Positions 25,777-32,656 of a DNA stretch of 36,007 nt are shown piece by piece. Source of the stretch: Armatimonadota bacterium (GTDB taxonomy: Bacteria > Armatimonadota > Armatimonadia > Armatimonadales > Armatimonadaceae); NCBI GenBank assembly GCA_014380815.1, contig JACMJB010000139.1, forward strand, positions 1 through 36,007, given 5' to 3'. The notes beneath the pieces are model-generated. The model had not been told where the DNA came from and made no database searches. It saw only the letters and a program-made list of their open reading frames with translations. Position 1 is the first letter of the stretch. The number at the start of each line of letters is the position of its first letter. The translations under genes were made by a program, and so were the position numbers.

Positions 25777-26117
25777 CAGGAGCGACCTTCATCGTCTGGT
25801 TCCGGAGCGAGCCAGCGCACCCGGGCGAGCGCGACCACGGTTAGACAGACGAATACGGCCTCCGCCAGATAGAAAAGGTACTCCTCAAGGGGTAGGTACC
25901 CGATCCAGAAAGGCGGCCCCCACACGAATGCAGGGTCGAAACTCCACAGGGTCTTGTAGGCGGCGTAGTTGTCCCACGGCGTCGTGTAGACAAATGCAAT
26001 CAGGCAGACCAGGCCCAGGCCCAGTCTGTGGAATCTTGTCAGCCGCCGCCGGAGCACCAGGAGCAAAAGGGCGATCGGAAGGGCGAGGAAGAGAAGCAGA
26101 AAGCCGCTATAGGTCAC
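25776..26117 (-). CDS. crtYc: Lycopene cyclase subunit CrtYc-like
   Basis: A 113-residue membrane protein and the first half of a heterodimeric lycopene cyclase. Hydrophobic helices lie at about 5-22, 32-45 and 80-98. Motifs are FVYTTPWDNYAAY (residues 43-55), the family PWDN element, and GYLPLEEYLFYL (73-84), the cyclase signature. It is followed by crtYd with a one-base overlap and then namZ. Acting with CrtYd it cyclises lycopene; membrane location is clear from the helices. The start ATG at 26117 gives the normal family length. Confidence 0.88.
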   Translation of the reverse strand: MTYSGFLLLFLALPIALLLLVLRRRLTRFHRLGLGLVCLIAFVYTTPWDNYAAYKTLWSFDPAFVWGPPFWIGYLPLEEYLFYLAEAVFVCLTVVALARVRWLAPEPDDEGRS

Positions 26118-26137
26118 GCCCTATTGTACCGGTTTTC

Positions 26138-26157
26138 CCCAGCCCGCAGGCTGGGGC
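26138..26157. repeat. Short perfect hairpin before crtYc
   Basis: CCCCAGCC-CGCA-GGCTGGGG is an eight-base-pair stem with a four-base loop between the small gene at 26179 and crtYc. There is no T run after it on either strand, so it is not a classical terminator. It could stabilise or process the transcript. Confidence 0.45.
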
Positions 26158-26178
26158 ATGTCCGGTCCCAGATGCGTT

Positions 26179-26436
26179 CTAAATACGGTTCGCAGCCGCG
26201 CTATCGCTGGTCGGCTCTCCTGGACCGCCGGTGGTCGCCAGGGAGTCAGCCCCGGCAAGCAGGTTTTCGATGACCGTGCCGATCCGCTGGTAGTCGCCGC
26301 CCTTCAAAGACAGCGCACTGGTGAGGTCACGCAGGTGCGGGCGCACCCCCTGGTAGGTGTCGAAGAGATCACCGGTCGCGCTCGCCCCCGACATCTCCAG
26401 GTCGTCCAGAATCTCGGAAAGCTCTCTCGTTGCCAT
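26179..26436 (-). CDS. Small protein of unknown function
   Basis: An 85-residue acidic protein, predicted soluble and mainly helical (RELSEILDDLEMSGASATGDLFDTYQGVRPHLRDLTSALSLKG, IGTVIENLLAGADSLATT). I recognise no domain. The ATG at 26436 has AGGAAAAAGTA directly before it, a good ribosome binding site, and an upstream in-frame start at 26493 would add residues of poor coding character. It precedes crtYc by 61 bases on the same strand, with a hairpin between, and is divergent from the stress-type SDR gene. It may be the first gene of the crtYc-crtYd-namZ unit. Confidence 0.65.
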   Translation of the reverse strand: MATRELSEILDDLEMSGASATGDLFDTYQGVRPHLRDLTSALSLKGGDYQRIGTVIENLLAGADSLATTGGPGEPTSDSAAANRI

Positions 26437-26672
26437 TACTTTTTCCTGTCTATTCGTCCACTCAGCCCTTTTCGAAACCCATACGCCAAACACCGTATAC
26501 CTCTACAAAGTACCTCCTCAAGAGCAGGATCGAACCGAGAAAGCATAAAGAAGAAAGTTATAAATTTGTCTATGACAGGACGGTTTTCGTTCTTTTTTGA
26601 TCGGGAAACACCCACTGTAGCCTGGATTTACGGGCAAACGAAGTAGCGGAAGAGCCAGAAGGGTTTGACCAA

Positions 26673-27539
26673 ATGTCTGACGAAAAGCCGAAATCGCCGA
26701 TGCCGGCACAGCACCAGGACCGACAGCCGGGCCTTGAGAGCGAAATGACCCCACGCCCCGAATTCGAGTCGCCCACCTACAGGGCGGCGGGCAAGCTCGA
26801 GGGCAAGGTGGCTATTGTGACCGGTGGTGACTCCGGGATCGGACGCGCGGTCGCCGTGACCTTCGCCAAAGAGGGCGCGGATGTCGCTATTGTTTACCTC
26901 GACGAGCATGACGATGCCAAAGAAACGGTGCGTCAGATCGAGCAGGAGGGGCGGCGAGGTCTCGCCATTGCTGCCGACCTGCGCGGGGAGGCTGCCGCGA
27001 TGGACGCCGTTGCCCGGACTGTGCGGGCATTCGGCAGACTGGACACTCTGGTCAACAACGCAGCCTATCAAGTTGTACAGGAGAGCATTGCCGACATCAC
27101 CGAGGAGCAGTTGGACCGGACTTTCCGGACCAACATCTATGCCTACTTTTTCATGGTCAAGGCATCGTTACCTCATCTGAAGCCGGGCAGCACGATCATC
27201 AATACCAGTTCGGTCGTCGCGTACCGGGGAGCACCCATGCTGCTGGACTATTCGTCCACCAAGGGCGCGAATGTCGCCTTTACGCGCTCGCTCTCCCAGC
27301 AGCTCATCGAAAAAGGGATTCGGGTTAACAGCGTCGCCCCCGGTCCGATCTGGACGCCGTTTATCCCCTCCGCGCTGCCGCCCGAAGAGGTGGCGCAGTT
27401 CGGTGCGGACACCCCGATGAAGCGACCTGGTCAGCCGTCGGAGCTTGCTCCCGCCTACGTATATCTGGCCTCGGAGGATTCGTCCTATGTCGCGGGACAG
27501 ACGATCCATGTCAACGGCGGCGAGGTCATCAACGGTTAG
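26673..27539 (+). CDS. SDR oxidoreductase, general stress protein 39 (YdaD/YhdF) type
   Basis: A 288-residue classical short-chain dehydrogenase. The 40-residue N-terminal extension with PAQHQDRQPGLESEMTPRP is the signature of the Bacillus GSP39/YhdF group, linked to general stress and solvent or osmotic tolerance. Rossmann motif TGGDSGIG (50-57), NNAAYQ (128-133), catalytic Ser180 (NTSSV), Tyr193 and Lys197 in YSSTK, and PGPIWTPF (223-230) are all present. The cofactor and substrate are unknown. It opens the plus-strand stress-type cluster; a 236-base A/T-richer gap on its left holds the divergent promoters. No clear alternative-sigma consensus could be read there. Confidence 0.92.
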   Translation: MSDEKPKSPMPAQHQDRQPGLESEMTPRPEFESPTYRAAGKLEGKVAIVTGGDSGIGRAVAVTFAKEGADVAIVYLDEHDDAKETVRQIEQEGRRGLAIAADLRGEAAAMDAVARTVRAFGRLDTLVNNAAYQVVQESIADITEEQLDRTFRTNIYAYFFMVKASLPHLKPGSTIINTSSVVAYRGAPMLLDYSSTKGANVAFTRSLSQQLIEKGIRVNSVAPGPIWTPFIPSALPPEEVAQFGADTPMKRPGQPSELAPAYVYLASEDSSYVAGQTIHVNGGEVING

Positions 27540-27588
27540 GACTCAAGCGCTCTTTCAGTTAAAGGCAGTCATTGGGGGCTGCAACATT

Positions 27589-27936
27589 ATGGCAAAAACC
27601 TACGATTCGAAAACCGCTGAGAGCATTCCAAGTACGGGCGCGACGGATTCCAGTGTCACAGTAAGCGATTCCGGACGCAAGGGAGGTGCGACCTCCGCCG
27701 CGCTAAGCGACAGCGCTTCCTCCGTGCGCGCCTACAATGCCGATGAGCATAACAGCGGGAAGTCACCTGTACAGCGATGGCTTCCGCTTCTGATCGCAGC
27801 CCTTGTGCTCTTTTTGGCGGTAGCGCTCGGTTCGCGACTCTTGAATCGTGCCCCCGCCCAGAACGGGGCTGAGACAGGTGCACCCAGCAGTGCCAGCCAG
27901 GGTGGCAGCAGAAATGCGACCGGTGCGGGCCAATAG
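27589..27936 (+). CDS. Small single-helix membrane protein, unknown
   Basis: A 115-residue protein with one transmembrane helix at about 64-81 (WLPLLIAALVLFLAVALG) between a Ser/Thr/Asp-rich cytoplasmic-type N-terminal region (residues 1-60) and a 30-residue Gly/Ser/Ala-rich tail. No domain is recognised. It starts 49 bases after the SDR gene and is followed by another small membrane protein, in the same direction. Its first four residues and twelve bases (ATGGCAAAAACC) are the same as those of the glycine-zipper protein at 29014. Probably an envelope-stress accessory protein by context only. Confidence 0.7.
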   Translation: MAKTYDSKTAESIPSTGATDSSVTVSDSGRKGGATSAALSDSASSVRAYNADEHNSGKSPVQRWLPLLIAALVLFLAVALGSRLLNRAPAQNGAETGAPSSASQGGSRNATGAGQ

Positions 27937-27983
27937 CGCGGCGACACCACAAGACTTAAGACTTAGGAAAAGGAGTTCTGGTT

Positions 27984-28211
27984 ATGGCACCAACGCGGGA
28001 AAGTATGCGCTCCCCACTGGAAGACACGGCAGGCGACACGGAGCGCGGAGAGCGGATCGTTCTGGGCACACTACCCCCCACCGGGAGCATGGACAAACGG
28101 CAGGCGAAGAAAACGCGGGTTCCTGCGGTGATTTTCGTGCTGACCGCGTTCGCGGTTGCGGCGATCCTGCTTATCCTTGTTCCGATATTTTACGACGTCC
28201 TCCAGAGTTGA
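27984..28211 (+). CDS. Small single-helix membrane protein, unknown
   Basis: A 75-residue protein: polar N-terminal half (residues 1-45, acidic then basic near KRQAKKTR) and one hydrophobic helix at about 47-70 ending in YDVLQS. The positive charges before the helix suggest an inside N-terminus. AAAAGGAG lies about nine bases before the ATG, a good ribosome binding site, which makes this a confident small gene. It lies 44 bases before the DUF2382 gene start used here and within the same plus-strand cluster. No family is recognised. Confidence 0.75.
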   Translation: MAPTRESMRSPLEDTAGDTERGERIVLGTLPPTGSMDKRQAKKTRVPAVIFVLTAFAVAAILLILVPIFYDVLQS

Positions 28212-28255
28212 ACGCAGACGTGACCGACAAGTCGTCGGGGGAGCAGAAGCCGTTA

Positions 28256-28930
28256 ATGATCGAGAACGAAAACAGTCGGATCGTGGTGGGTGAGGGTGGC
28301 TGGCGGGGACGGCTGGATTCTCTGCCCGCTCGGGACGCCGAATACGTCGTGTTACGCCCGGAAGATGGTGGACCGGCTCTGACACTGCCGGTCCACCTGC
28401 TCAGGCAGGGAGAGAATGGAACCTTTCACTTGCCCCTGGTGCGGTCAGCCGTGGCGGCCCACGCGCAGGAAGCGGGAAGTGGGATGACTGGTGCGGCGAC
28501 TGCTGCGGCAGGTTTTGGCGGGGAGCGTATCACGGTGCCGGTGATCGAGGAGAGCGTCGAGATCCACAAGCGCGTGGTGGAGACAAGCGGTATCCGCATC
28601 GTCAAGACGGTTACGGAGCGTGAAGAGATCATCGAGGAGCCTCTGGGGCGCGAGCAGGTCGAGGTGACGCGCGTTCCCGCAGGCCGCATTGTGGAGGCTG
28701 CGGTCGCGCCGCGTCAGGAAGGCGACACGCTGATTATCCCAATTTACGAGGAGCGGCTAGTGGTTCAGAAGCAGCTTTTTTTGATCGAAGAGTTACATGT
28801 GACGCGAAACCGCATCGTGGACCGTCGCGAACAGCAGACGGTGACATTGCGCCGTGAAGAAGTCGCTGTCGAGCGATTTCCTATAGACTCCGCCCCAGGC
28901 GGTATCGGAGACAGTGACACGCCGCGCTGA
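28256..28930 (+). CDS. DUF2382 (YsnF/AvaK) stress protein with N-terminal barrel-like domain
   Basis: A 224-residue protein. Residues 1-70 (GGWRGRLDSLPARDAEYVVLR ... LTLPVHLLRQG) look like a small PRC-barrel-type domain, a common partner of DUF2382. Residues 90-208 are the DUF2382 domain, built from two similar halves: ITVPVIEESVEIHKRVVETSGIRI ... EQVEVTRVPAG and LIIPIYEERLVVQKQLFLIEELHV ... EEVAVERFP. DUF2382 proteins appear in stress and desiccation regulons; the biochemical role is unknown. An in-frame GTG at 28220, nine bases after the preceding stop, is an alternative start adding 12 residues; the ATG at 28256 follows GGGGGAG at a long spacing. It belongs to the same run as the gene at 29014. 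Confidence 0.85.
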   Translation: MIENENSRIVVGEGGWRGRLDSLPARDAEYVVLRPEDGGPALTLPVHLLRQGENGTFHLPLVRSAVAAHAQEAGSGMTGAATAAAGFGGERITVPVIEESVEIHKRVVETSGIRIVKTVTEREEIIEEPLGREQVEVTRVPAGRIVEAAVAPRQEGDTLIIPIYEERLVVQKQLFLIEELHVTRNRIVDRREQQTVTLRREEVAVERFPIDSAPGGIGDSDTPR

Positions 28931-29013
28931 GATCGGGCTTGTCCAATGACCGCGAGCGCGCCGCAGAATGCGCGTCAAAGTCCTGGCAACACCAGGCAGT
29001 ACAGGAGAGACAG

Positions 29014-30075
29014 ATGGCAAAAACCGTAGTGGGATTATTTGACGAGTTCAACGAGGCGCAGAGCGTAGTGACCGAACTGGAGTCGTCGGGATTCAACCGC
29101 AGCGACATCAGTATTATCACCAATGAGCATGGTGCAAGCTATGGAACCGCGACCCAATCGGCAGGTCACGATAGCGGACCTGGCGTGGTCGGTGGGGCGG
29201 CAGGCGGCGCGGTCAAGGGCGGGGTTATTGGCGGCCTGACGGGTCTTGCCGCAAGCCTTGCCATGCTGGCAATTCCGGGAGTCGGACCAGTACTTGCAGT
29301 CGGGCCGCTGGCGGCGACCCTTTCCGGGGCGGGCCTTGGCGCGATGGGTGGCGGCGTTATCGGCGCGCTGAGCGGGCTGGGTATTCCCAAGGAGGACGCC
29401 GGGTATTATGCGGAAGGTGTTCGCCGCGGCGGCACGCTGGTTTCGGTGAGCGTGAACGATGACAGCCGGGCCGATGCGGCGATGGCGATCTTCAATCGTC
29501 ACAATCCCGTGGACATTGACGAGCGCGGCAGCTACTATTCCGGGTCAGGGTACGCAGGCTACACCGAGACGGCTCCTGCCTATACCCCGGAACAGATCGC
29601 GACCGAACGCAGCACCTACGCCACCGCTCGTGCCGCGGCCCCGGCAAGGACTGGCACCGACGAGGTCACGATTCCCATTGTGGAAGAGGAGCTTGCGGTC
29701 GGTAAGCGGCAGGTCCAGCGGGGCGGCGCGCGCATCCACACGTATATCACCGAGCGCCCAATCGAGGAGCAGGTCACGCTTCACGAGGAGCATATCAGTG
29801 TCGAGCGGCACCCGGTAAATCGCGCTGCTACCGCCGCTGACCTGAACACCTTCAAGGAAGGGACGTTCGAGGTGACCGAGCGGTCAGAGGAGGCGGTCGT
29901 CTCCAAGCAGGCCCGCGTGGTCGAGGAGGTGGTCGTGGGCAAGCAGGCCACGGAGCGGACAGAGACGATCCGCGACACGGTGCGACGCACCGATGTGGAC
30001 GTGGACGAGCTTGACAACGACGACGTGACGACGACGAAGACGACCGGCACGACCACTGGTACGGGCCGGATCTAA
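29014..30075 (+). CDS. GSP17M-like glycine-zipper domain fused to DUF2382
   Basis: A 353-residue two-part protein. Residues 1-36 (AKTVVGLFDEFNEAQSVVTELESSGF) form the start of a GSP17M/YflT-like heat-induced stress domain, and 57-123 a glycine-zipper membrane segment (GGAAGGAVKGGVIGGLTGLAA, then GLGAMGGGVIGALSGLG), closed by GYYAEGVRRGGTLVSVSV. A Tyr/Ser/Ala linker follows. Residues 215-330 are DUF2382 (VTIPIVEEELAVGKRQVQRGG, HEEHISVERHPVNR, FEVTERSEEAVVSKQARVVEEVVVGK). The C-terminus is Thr/Gly rich. ACAGGAGAGACAG before the ATG is a strong ribosome binding site, so the start is firm. The terminator at 30091 closes this transcript. Likely a membrane-associated stress protein. Confidence 0.9.
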   Translation: MAKTVVGLFDEFNEAQSVVTELESSGFNRSDISIITNEHGASYGTATQSAGHDSGPGVVGGAAGGAVKGGVIGGLTGLAASLAMLAIPGVGPVLAVGPLAATLSGAGLGAMGGGVIGALSGLGIPKEDAGYYAEGVRRGGTLVSVSVNDDSRADAAMAIFNRHNPVDIDERGSYYSGSGYAGYTETAPAYTPEQIATERSTYATARAAAPARTGTDEVTIPIVEEELAVGKRQVQRGGARIHTYITERPIEEQVTLHEEHISVERHPVNRAATAADLNTFKEGTFEVTERSEEAVVSKQARVVEEVVVGKQATERTETIRDTVRRTDVDVDELDNDDVTTTKTTGTTTGTGRI

Positions 30076-30090
30076 GGCAGGCACCCGGTC

Positions 30091-30126
30091 ATGGCCCCCG
30101 CTTTCACTCGGAGAAGCGGGGGCCAT
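30091..30126 (+). terminator. Strong hairpin terminator after the DUF2382 genes
   Basis: ATGGCCCCCGCTT (30091-30103) and AAGCGGGGGCCAT (30114-30126) form a perfect 13-base-pair stem with a ten-base loop, 16 bases after the stop. The following CTTCTGCCTT is only moderately T-rich, but stem strength and position support termination. Confidence 0.78.
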
Positions 30127-30154
30127 CTTCTGCCTTACAGAAAGCAGCGAAACG

Positions 30155-30508
30155 ATGAGTGATACCACGATTATCAAAGTGCAGTCTGCGCATTCGCCAC
30201 AGGGCGAACTAGGTCAGACATACCTCGCCAGCGGCAAAAACGTCGCCATGCGTCTCTGGAAGGACGAGCAGCCCGGCGAGCCGAAGCCCGCCGTAGCGCG
30301 TGACTACGAAACGGTGGGCTACGTGATCGCGGGCCGGGCCGAGCTTCATAGCGAAGGCCAGATGGTGTTGCTGGAGCCGGGCGATTCCTGGATCGTGCCA
30401 AAAGGAGCGACACACACCTACCGCCTGCTGGAGGCCTTCACCGCCGTTGAGGCCACTTACCCTCCAGCTCACATCCATGGGCGCGACGAGAACAAGACCG
30501 CCGGGTAA
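30155..30508 (+). CDS. Cupin-domain protein
   Basis: A 117-residue single-domain cupin. The motif region reads YVIAGRAELHSEGQMVLLEPGDSWIVPKGATHTYRLLEAFTAVEATYPPAHIHG, with the PGDSWIVPKGATHTY second-motif signature and a histidine that can bind metal; the first motif is degenerate (no clear HxH before the YETVGYV strand). Such small cupins can be isomerases, quercetinase-like or storage and signalling proteins, so function is open. It starts 28 bases after the terminator hairpin and is followed 10 bases later by the propeller gene, so those two probably share a transcript. Confidence 0.85.
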   Translation: MSDTTIIKVQSAHSPQGELGQTYLASGKNVAMRLWKDEQPGEPKPAVARDYETVGYVIAGRAELHSEGQMVLLEPGDSWIVPKGATHTYRLLEAFTAVEATYPPAHIHGRDENKTAG

Positions 30509-30518
30509 GTCGAGGAAA

Positions 30519-31745
30519 ATGAGACACATGGTCGCAGCGAATAGATTCCGTAAGAACCGCGAAAAATGCCTTGCTGTCGCTTCCTGGGCCGCGGCAGTGT
30601 TTGGCGTCTGCGCCGTTGCCGAGAACCGAGTGGGTGTCGCGGCCCTTCCCGCAAGCCTGCCGCGGGAGAGGCTGACCGGGGCGGCAAAGCTGGAGATCGT
30701 CCATGAGTTTCAAACCCAGATGCCCGTAGGCGTGGCAGTGACCAGTGCAGGTCGCCGGTTCATTAGCTACCCGCGCTGGGAGGACCCGCTCCGCTTCACA
30801 CTCGCGGAGCTTCGCAACGGGCGAGAGATCCCCTACCCCACCTCTGGCGCGATTCAGAACGGCGCGAAGAGCGGACCGCGCGCGAACATGGTCTCGCTGC
30901 AGGGAATCCTTGTGGACGCAAAGGACCGGCTCTGGGCGCTCGATACGGGCACGATCAACATGAAACCGATCGCCCCCTTCGTCCCCAAGCTGATCTGCAT
31001 TGACACGAAGACAAACAGAGTCTCACGGATCTATCCGCTCCCCGCCGCTGTCGTGCCGCCCGGCGGCTACCTGAACGATCTGCGGATTGATCTGCGGAAG
31101 GGTAACAAGGGCATCGTCTATATTACCGACTCGGGAAAGCAGCCTGGTCTGGTCATGGTGGATCTGGCATCCGGGCGTGCCTGGCGGCGGATGACCGGTC
31201 ACCCCAGTGTCCAGCCGGAACCGGGCTTTGTCGGATTCGTCGAGGGAAGTGCGCTGTTCAAGCGTCCCAGACCCGGTGTCGCCACCCACCTGAACATCGG
31301 GTCCGACGGCATCACGCTCAGCCCTGATGGGTCGCGTCTCTACTACACACCGCTTGCTGGCCGCCGCCTTTACAGTGTCGCCACCGATGCCCTTGCAAGC
31401 CCCGATGGCACCGAGGAGCAGGTGCGCGTGACCTTGAAGGATCACGGCGATAAGGGCACGGCGGATGGTCTCGGCACCGACCGCAAGGGCCGGATCTACG
31501 TCACAAACTGGGAGCAGAACGCCGTTCTGCGCCGCCTGCCCTCCGGGCTGTTTGAGACCGTGGTCCACGATGACCGGCTACTCTGGCCCGACACGCTGGA
31601 CATCGGGCGCGACAACTACCTGTACATCATCAGTAACCAACTCCACCGCCAGGGCGGCTACAACGAGGGCCGGGACCGGCGTGAAAAACCGTATCTGCTC
31701 ACCCGGATCAAGATTGATGCGGGTCCGGTCCTGCTGGATCGCTAG
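30519..31745 (+). CDS. Major royal jelly protein/Yellow-type propeller protein
   Basis: A 408-residue protein with an N-terminal hydrophobic segment (about residues 17-38, CLAVASWAAAVFGVCAVA) that may be a signal peptide or anchor. The rest is a Yellow/MRJP beta-propeller: VGVAVTSAGRRFISYPRW, LVDAKDRLWALDTGTIN, LNDLRIDLRKGNKGIVYITDSG, GSDGITLSPDGSRLYYTPLAGRRLYSV, GTADGLGTDRKGRIYVTNWEQNAV, WPDTLDIGRDNYLYIISNQLH. Bacterial members are usually named L-dopachrome-tautomerase-related, but no activity is shown. AGGA precedes both ATG codons at 30519 and 30528; spacing favours neither clearly. It follows the cupin gene by 10 bases and precedes a second SDR gene by 17. Confidence 0.88.
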   Translation: MRHMVAANRFRKNREKCLAVASWAAAVFGVCAVAENRVGVAALPASLPRERLTGAAKLEIVHEFQTQMPVGVAVTSAGRRFISYPRWEDPLRFTLAELRNGREIPYPTSGAIQNGAKSGPRANMVSLQGILVDAKDRLWALDTGTINMKPIAPFVPKLICIDTKTNRVSRIYPLPAAVVPPGGYLNDLRIDLRKGNKGIVYITDSGKQPGLVMVDLASGRAWRRMTGHPSVQPEPGFVGFVEGSALFKRPRPGVATHLNIGSDGITLSPDGSRLYYTPLAGRRLYSVATDALASPDGTEEQVRVTLKDHGDKGTADGLGTDRKGRIYVTNWEQNAVLRRLPSGLFETVVHDDRLLWPDTLDIGRDNYLYIISNQLHRQGGYNEGRDRREKPYLLTRIKIDAGPVLLDR

Positions 31746-31762: not shown

Positions 31763-32656
31763 ATGACTATCGTGCAAAACGGACGACTTCAGAACAAAGT
31801 AGCCATTGTGACCGGTGGCTCCACCGGAATCGGCGAGGCGATCTGCCATAAGTTCGCGTTGGAAGGGGCGAAAGTGGTCTGCGTCGGCCTCCCGGACGAC
31901 CCGGTCAACGAGGTTGTGGATGCACTCACGGCAAAAGGCAGCGAGGCTATCGGTTATCTCGGCGATATTGCCAGCGAGGATCAAGCCCGGGCAGCAGTCG
32001 AAGCCACGATCGCACGGTTCGGCAGGCTCGACATTCTGATCAACAATGCGGGCGTCTTTCTGGCGACTGCTGAGGTGGACCGGTACCCGATCGAAGACTT
32101 TGACCGAACAGTGCGCATGAACCTGCGCTCCGCTTTTTTGATGACAAAATTCGCGCTGCCACATCTTCAAAAAACGCGCGGTAACATCGTCAGTGCGGGG
32201 TCCGAGGCGGGCTTCAATGGTCTGGCGCTAAATGCACCCTATGGAGGAACCAAGGCATTTATACATGCCTTCATGATGGGGGTTGCGGTCGAGCAGGCAA
32301 AATATGGGGTTCGTGCAAACTGCGTGTGCCCTGGCGCAATTGACACGGCCTGGACACATAAAGAGACCGGGCCGATGGATGCCAAGATGGAGAAGCAGCT
32401 CGTGGATGCGACGCCGATGGCACGCCGCGGGACCCCCGCTGAGATGGCGAACGTGTACGCATTCCTGGCCTCTGACGAATCGAGCTATGTTACCGGTGCG
32501 CTCTGGCTTGCCGATGGCGGCGTCACTCCCGCCAAGGGGGCCGCCGGGCAGGAGACCCCACGATCCCTGCGGGTGGAACCCGGCAGCGACGTGGATGCAG
32601 ACCTCGACCATGAGAGAGGCGGACTGGAGAACAAAGAGTACCACACCATTCGCTAA
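31763..32656 (+). CDS. SDR family oxidoreductase
   Basis: A 297-residue classical short-chain dehydrogenase. Motifs: TGGSTGIG (17-24), DI strand end GDIASED (68-73), NNAG (94-97), catalytic Tyr160 and Lys164 in YGGTK, and PGAIDTAW near 190. The usual catalytic serine region reads NIVSAGSEAGF. A 45-residue C-terminal tail after the family end (GGVTPAKG...) is acidic and unlike the core. The gene follows the propeller gene by 17 bases and is the last of the plus-strand cluster. Substrate unknown; sugar or alcohol dehydrogenase or fatty-acid-like reductase are possible. Confidence 0.92.
   Translation: MTIVQNGRLQNKVAIVTGGSTGIGEAICHKFALEGAKVVCVGLPDDPVNEVVDALTAKGSEAIGYLGDIASEDQARAAVEATIARFGRLDILINNAGVFLATAEVDRYPIEDFDRTVRMNLRSAFLMTKFALPHLQKTRGNIVSAGSEAGFNGLALNAPYGGTKAFIHAFMMGVAVEQAKYGVRANCVCPGAIDTAWTHKETGPMDAKMEKQLVDATPMARRGTPAEMANVYAFLASDESSYVTGALWLADGGVTPAKGAAGQETPRSLRVEPGSDVDADLDHERGGLENKEYHTIR

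Follow-up and report, generated by a model that had tools for sequence, protein, structure and literature searches.

A small single-helix protein and two divergent DUF2382 proteins as the predicted core of a widespread gene unit in an Armatimonadota contig and other bacteria

Two adjacent genes for proteins with a DUF2382 domain (A and B) lie in contig JACMJB010000139.1 of an Armatimonadota bacterium, and the question raised by this locus is which of the neighbouring genes form a unit with them. The window (the whole 36,007-nucleotide stretch that was analyzed) is one whole contig, C230, in a genome of 495 contigs. The first-pass annotation had joined five plus-strand genes at 26673–30075 into one membrane-associated stress device closed by a strong terminator; the positions of all five are borne out by the list of open reading frames (ORFs) and their family assignments stand, whereas the terminator call is less clear and the limits of the unit at both ends need correction. 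As judged by sequence comparison, the core is a small protein with a single transmembrane (TM) segment together with A and B, it is widespread, and the unit had been drawn wrongly. The five genes are as follows.

26673–27539, plus strand: short-chain dehydrogenase/reductase (SDR), over the NCBIfam cut-off for PRK06701
27589–27936, plus strand: TM1, 115 residues, predicted single TM segment at about residues 62–85, polar tail, VRAYN at the motif position; homologues in the same place in the related genomes G018, G010, G016 and G017
27984–28211, plus strand: TM2, an ORF of 75 residues with a C-terminal hydrophobic segment, found in the window only
28256–28930, plus strand: A, PRC-barrel-like front (about residues 1–78) and DUF2382 (residues 96–205), from Pfam, the predicted model and its place in the A clade of the trees
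29014–30075, plus strand: B, GSP17M/YflT ferredoxin-like domain, glycine-rich hydrophobic insert and DUF2382 (residues 220–330), from Pfam and the predicted model

The Pfam model for DUF2382 (PF09557, gathering cut-off 23) matches A at 80.9 bits (E 1.1e-22) and B at 87.3 bits (E 1.1e-24), and these are the sole matches in this genome; the cut-off of 49.75 for TIGR02271, the YsnF/AvaK domain, is narrowly missed by both (49.2 bits for A, 46.2 for B). That the two carry different front domains agrees with the sequence, Pfam and the model, B having a GSP17M start (PF11181, 30.4 bits versus a cut-off of 26.2, E 5.5e-7, with residues 5–41 only matched) followed by a glycine-rich hydrophobic insert. 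An alternative in-frame GTG start for A is possible at 28220. TM1 and TM2 had been described as small single-helix membrane proteins, and each has one hydrophobic segment by inspection, computed also for TM1; neither has a match in Pfam or NCBIfam.

DUF2382 is matched in 18 of 291 Armatimonadota genomes, 17 of them over the cut-off, and several relatives show the arrangement directly. The order TM1-A-B-cupin followed by a major royal jelly protein (MRJP) family gene in G016 is that of the window, and G018 has TM1-A-B-GSP17M-cupin. In G010 one contig holds TM1, A and the start of B and another the end of B, GSP17M and the cupin, and we take the two as one cluster. G017, from the family of the window, has kept TM1, with a B that lacks DUF2382 and an A reduced to a 77-residue remnant. 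No homologue of TM2 was found in the clusters of the relatives or in the wider set of loci. This wider set came from a contig scan with an alignment of B, so that B was the bait and A was not asked for; it gave 79 loci, or 76 once the duplicate contigs L071, L072 and L074 were dropped, to which the window and 20 Armatimonadota stretches were added. Among 67 adjacent DUF2382 pairs on the same strand, 50 have A followed by B and 12 the reverse, three have both members without GSP17M and two both with it. Three of the 50 are those of the window, G018 and G016, and the remaining 47 come from the 76 further loci; by record title those 47 span eight other phyla, three of which have a single locus each, and we would guess that a Gracilibacteria record is possibly a binning error. 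Some of the 76 loci share a genome (L073 and L077, for example) and Nannocystis supplies seven of the 50 pairs, so the counts are not of independent events.

A and B are distinct lineages and keep close company. In a tree of 97 pair members (leaving out L114, which has both domains, and L122_1) they are split on one branch with 100/100 support, and in a tree of 173 domains, where the GSP17M label needs 12 changes, 66 rows without GSP17M, the A of the window among them, form one supported group. A and B are fused as a single ORF in ten of the 50 pairs (six from Nannocystis, three from Alphaproteobacteria and one from Burkholderiaceae), and in seven pairs the two genes overlap by 4 bases, taking the longest starts. 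Distances among A proteins correlate with those among their B partners (r 0.64, with 0 of 2000 permutations as high).

A small single-TM ORF precedes A at 17 of 49 loci, compared with 31 of 1020 control genes, a comparison that ignores kinship and drops loci in which A lies within 300 bases of a contig end; two of the 17 (L115 and L118) are the ends of a longer membrane protein. The pattern [VI]xVY[DENPSG] stands before the TM segment in eight ORFs directly upstream of A and in one stray hit nearby, and no peptide with it was found in 897 kb farther from the pairs. Since the motif was first noticed in this first set, fresh regions and places with GSP17M alone are the fairer tests. Of 40 fresh regions, drawn from two families, 29 contain the small TM ORF; six of the 40 repeat earlier loci, and among the 34 new ones it is present in 27. 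In the Azospirillum family (that of G292) every one of the 27 pairs is preceded by a peptide that bears K[VIF]GVY[DSNEP] and, at its C-terminus, a TM segment. The strict motif pattern is matched by 24 of the 29 TM ORFs, the remaining five having F before GVY. The Azospirillum-family peptides are 42–97 residues long, with the motif near the start, a variable linker and the TM segment at the very end, and they have no Pfam or NCBIfam model, there being only stray matches to single members.

A profile of the peptide matches 44 of 82 genomes of the Azospirillum family, some without DUF2382. At ten places without DUF2382 the peptide is followed by a GSP17M-only gene in every case; these were chosen by hand from the profile matches away from DUF2382, six of them (L267–L272) are close orthologues, and at least ten other such matches lie outside the sample. 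This argues that the peptide goes with GSP17M, and A with the DUF2382 of B, and the G017 pattern, with TM1 kept, DUF2382 lost from B and A a remnant, fits that pairing. TM1 of the window aligns with the KVGVYD peptides, and its homologues in G018 and G010 read VRVYD. Possible imitation of the first beta strand of GSP17M by VGVYD is weakly supported and is carried mostly by one lineage: with a position-specific scoring matrix, the median control fraction is 0.027 (36 peptides, partly related to one another) and that for TM1 of the window is 0.32.

The predicted structure of A (mean predicted local distance difference test score, pLDDT, 80.6; predicted template modelling score 0.37; pLDDT 86–96 over residues 11–70) combines a small front resembling a barrel with DUF2382 strands 35–37 residues long. 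In fold comparison it comes closest to 3htr, a PRC-barrel protein (Z 6.5), and to reaction-centre H chains (Z about 5–6), and this protein and these chains make up nine of the ten best re-aligned PDB matches, all with Z of 6.5 or less, in a range (under 8) where the fold-match tool cautions that there may be only a common arrangement. For the front of A, Foldseek gave two H chains (E about 1, probability 0.82–0.87), with no match for the A or B model at E of 0.001 or less, and the Pfam PRC model has no match in A. The barrel-like front proposed earlier is thus supported by the model, as a PRC-like fold at Z under 8. The model of B is confident for GSP17M only, with a beta-alpha-beta fold. Searches of solved structures by sequence gave none for A and only weak matches for B (E 0.14 and above). 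The suggestion that amphipathic beta strands lie on the membrane was tried and set aside, as unsupported against shuffles.

A link to stress comes from the promoter regions of Alphaproteobacteria. The EcfG motif of Sphingomonas melonis is GGAAC-N17-20-GTT (PMC6599016, as given in excerpts of that source), and a GGAAC-N16-18-GTT box stands upstream of the peptide in 22 of 29 Azospirillum-family loci, 57–86 bases from its start (0.03 expected per locus; with L136 and L249 counted as one place the figure is 21 of 28 distinct loci, and L111 and L136 are also in the first-set count). An EcfG-type box is present within 300 bases before all ten GSP17M-only units, and in the first set before A in seven of 15 alphaproteobacterial pairs, with 0.5 expected. 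The boxed loci are related, yet the boxes persist where the spacer sequence varies. A sigma-70 promoter scan of 26000–30600 in the window gave one site, with 1.0 expected. In excerpts of published work, YsnF-labelled transcripts are raised in the bacteria of dried lichens (PMC6331575) and in the roots of resurrection plants after desiccation (PMC11985526), and a gene with 'ysnf-like repeats' is among the changes tabulated for an oxyR mutant of Deinococcus (PMC2225504); in each case the DUF2382 type could be A, B or another.

We put at about even chances that the unit encodes a complex which is induced by stress and sits at the cytosolic side of the cytoplasmic membrane. The small single-TM protein would hold a short cytosolic motif above the membrane (its clearest form K-[VIF]-G-V-Y-[DE], that of the window VRAYN), and this motif would recruit or tether the ferredoxin-like GSP17M domain of B, whose glycine-rich hydrophobic insert may add membrane contact. 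A, with its PRC-barrel-like front, would join B through the two distinct DUF2382 domains, that of A consisting of very long beta strands in the model, and the complex might act as a scaffold that protects the membrane when the cell meets general stress, for instance drying, salt or oxidation. All of the binding steps are inferences, as are the topology, the induction by stress in Armatimonadota and the protective function. What favours a complex is computed directly: the A-B order, the 100/100 split and divergence of A and B, the fusions and 4-base overlaps, the fixed place of the peptide and its occurrence with GSP17M-only genes, the G017 pattern and the EcfG-type boxes of Alphaproteobacteria, and the PRC-like fold of A is likewise a computed observation. 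The published YsnF-labelled transcripts that rise on drying also speak for it. A bolder version, which we regard as unlikely, holds that undescribed tiny tail-anchored peptides anchor GSP17M in many bacteria, that VGVYD may imitate the first beta strand of GSP17M (TVVGLFD in B of the window), and that the DUF2382 domains of A and B would come together on this anchor as long beta ribbons, forming an old general-stress membrane scaffold.

Several observations weigh against the proposed complex. The small TM ORF is absent before A at 32 of the 49 first-set loci, and of 13 regions from the Pyrinomonadaceae family 11 lack it (two have it); the peptide also occurs without A and without DUF2382, so that the unit is modular. 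In TM1 of the window the motif is degenerate (VRAYN) and a long tail follows the TM segment, and for these reasons the membership of TM1 in the peptide family is likely but not proven. A does not directly precede B at 29 of the 76 further loci (some are cut by contig ends), the order is B then A in 12 of the 67 adjacent pairs, and distant pairs show weak co-divergence of A and B (r 0.22). The model of B is poor over its DUF2382 part. None of 35 pairs outside Alphaproteobacteria, the window included, has an EcfG-type box (0.8 expected), and in the window the 600 bases that precede the A domain contain no GGAAC-N17-20-GTT box.

The same boxes could also be read without any complex, A, B and the peptide being separate general-stress proteins that share a stress promoter, with their order kept by co-regulation alone. 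The occurrence of peptide, GSP17M and DUF2382 genes in partial sets would suit this, but the A-B fusions, fixed order, 4-base overlaps and A/B split exceed what co-regulation needs, and we consider it somewhat unlikely. We consider it improbable that the unit, instead of being a protective scaffold, works as a sensor or adaptor that passes stress signals into two-component systems. Response regulators account for seven, and histidine-kinase ATPase domains for six, of 148 genes scanned within 3 kb of pairs, compared with two response regulators in 147 far genes (the scan covered 33 loci, with 148 of their 159 near proteins and 147 of the 159 far proteins that had been sampled). The excess is small and ignores kinship, the kinase domain is not among the 25 families listed for the far set and could number up to two of 147, and none of ten window proteins scanned with Pfam is a kinase or response regulator; two-component genes nearby are suggestive only.

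The five-gene device of the first-pass annotation, in which the SDR acts with A, B and both small membrane proteins, has a conserved part, namely the DUF2382 pair and a small membrane protein, with a stress box in Alphaproteobacteria; the SDR does not belong to it. The GSP39-type label itself is sound, with PRK06701 scoring 454.2 bits versus the NCBIfam cut-off of 413, a model under which we presume Bacillus GSP39/YhdF also to fall. In favour of membership, the SDR ends 49 bases before TM1 in the window and one transcript is possible. The gene-neighbourhood comparison that had been proposed beforehand as a refuting test shows scatter in close relatives: the nearest SDR homologues in G017, G018 and G010, and a second copy in the genome of the window, are on contigs other than those of the DUF2382 genes, with no DUF2382 next to them over the sequence read (in three cases a short contig of 4–5.5 kb). 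No SDR at least 40% identical occurs at any of the 79 DUF2382 loci, the best full-length match being 37% (in L139), and in G010 a small divergent gene, the homologue of the one ahead of the SDR in the window, faces TM1 with no SDR between. We therefore reject the SDR as a member and regard it as a local neighbour only; relatives largely refute the five-gene device, which on this comparison is very improbable. Two further genes were noted. An 86-residue protein without a Pfam match (26179–26439, minus strand) is divergent from the cluster, and its homologue in G010 (43% identical) faces TM1 (L037:2056–2322); a second SDR (31763–32656, plus strand), of the PRK07231 glucose 1-dehydrogenase type (217.9 versus a cut-off of 215), is 37% identical to the first.

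At the other end of the unit the window has two further features.

30091–30126, plus strand: GC-rich hairpin without a T-run between B and the cupin, from folding
30155–30508, plus strand: cupin, a kept neighbour of the A-B pair in the family of the window, from the clusters of relatives

Cupins 74–82% identical lie inside the DUF2382 cluster of G010, G016 and G018. Six of the 291 phylum genomes have a cupin at least 74% identical, and in four, that of the window included, it is in the DUF2382 cluster; of the other two, G022 has it on a different contig and G002 showed no DUF2382. One Acidobacteriaceae record (L146) has a cupin of 63% identity close to a DUF2382 pair. By these sequence comparisons the cupin, which had been missed, is part of the cluster in this family. 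The supposed strong terminator is indeed a strong hairpin (-35.3 kcal/mol for an 80-base stretch), but it has no T-run, the terminator scan did not list it, and the cupin is conserved past it, so the unit does not clearly end there; it is a candidate terminator or processing/attenuation site. G016 has a hairpin of similar strength (-33.0) and different sequence in the same place between B and the cupin (L034:7809–7880), and Rfam at gathering scores had no match in the window.

Other neighbours were recorded. The MRJP-family gene (30519–31745, plus strand, Pfam E 1.9e-42) follows the cupin, as does a homologue 53% identical in G016. In G020, a complete-looking genome, DUF2382 genes form two tandem arrays (L038 and L039), which resemble each other and are separated by about 1.1 Mb. 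A conserved membrane protein lies near DUF2382 genes in Armatimonadota and Acidobacteriota (L035, L038, L080, L091 and L098), another membrane protein family lies beside DUF2382 pairs in several phyla (L117, L129, L080, L142, L115 and L087; 32–64% identical to the Microvirga copy), and the Pfam mechanosensitive-channel TM-helix model matches three of the 148 genes near pairs.

YsnF, AvaK and YflT are, to our knowledge, long-known stress proteins without a known mechanism. The conserved set of A, B and peptide in several distant groups suggests an undescribed membrane-bound stress complex, and its fixed partners, natural fusions and short motif make the question of mechanism a plain binding test. 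By title, none of the literature matches listed describes a peptide-A-B unit (subscription literature is mostly uncovered by them and novelty is unproven), and no tail-anchored partner of GSP17M was found among them. The YsnF/AvaK-type DUF2382 proteins of Bacillus and Nostoc resemble A and B in having the same Pfam domain; A and B of the window differ in falling just under the TIGR02271 cut-off. In Nostoc, AvaK and two adjacent genes encode PRC-barrel proteins that are co-induced under alkane overproduction (PMC7660261), and these barrels recall the PRC-like front of A, although the excerpts of that article describe no GSP17M partner or membrane peptide. YflT/GSP17M (PF11181) is like the front of B by Pfam and by the beta-alpha-beta model, to which B adds the glycine-rich insert and a C-terminal DUF2382. 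The EcfG general stress regulon of Alphaproteobacteria differs in that its box is in none of the 35 pairs from other groups, but the same box stands before alphaproteobacterial A-B and peptide units, and with boxed versions in Azospirillum relatives and Microvirga, genera with cultured strains, deletion and localisation should be feasible.

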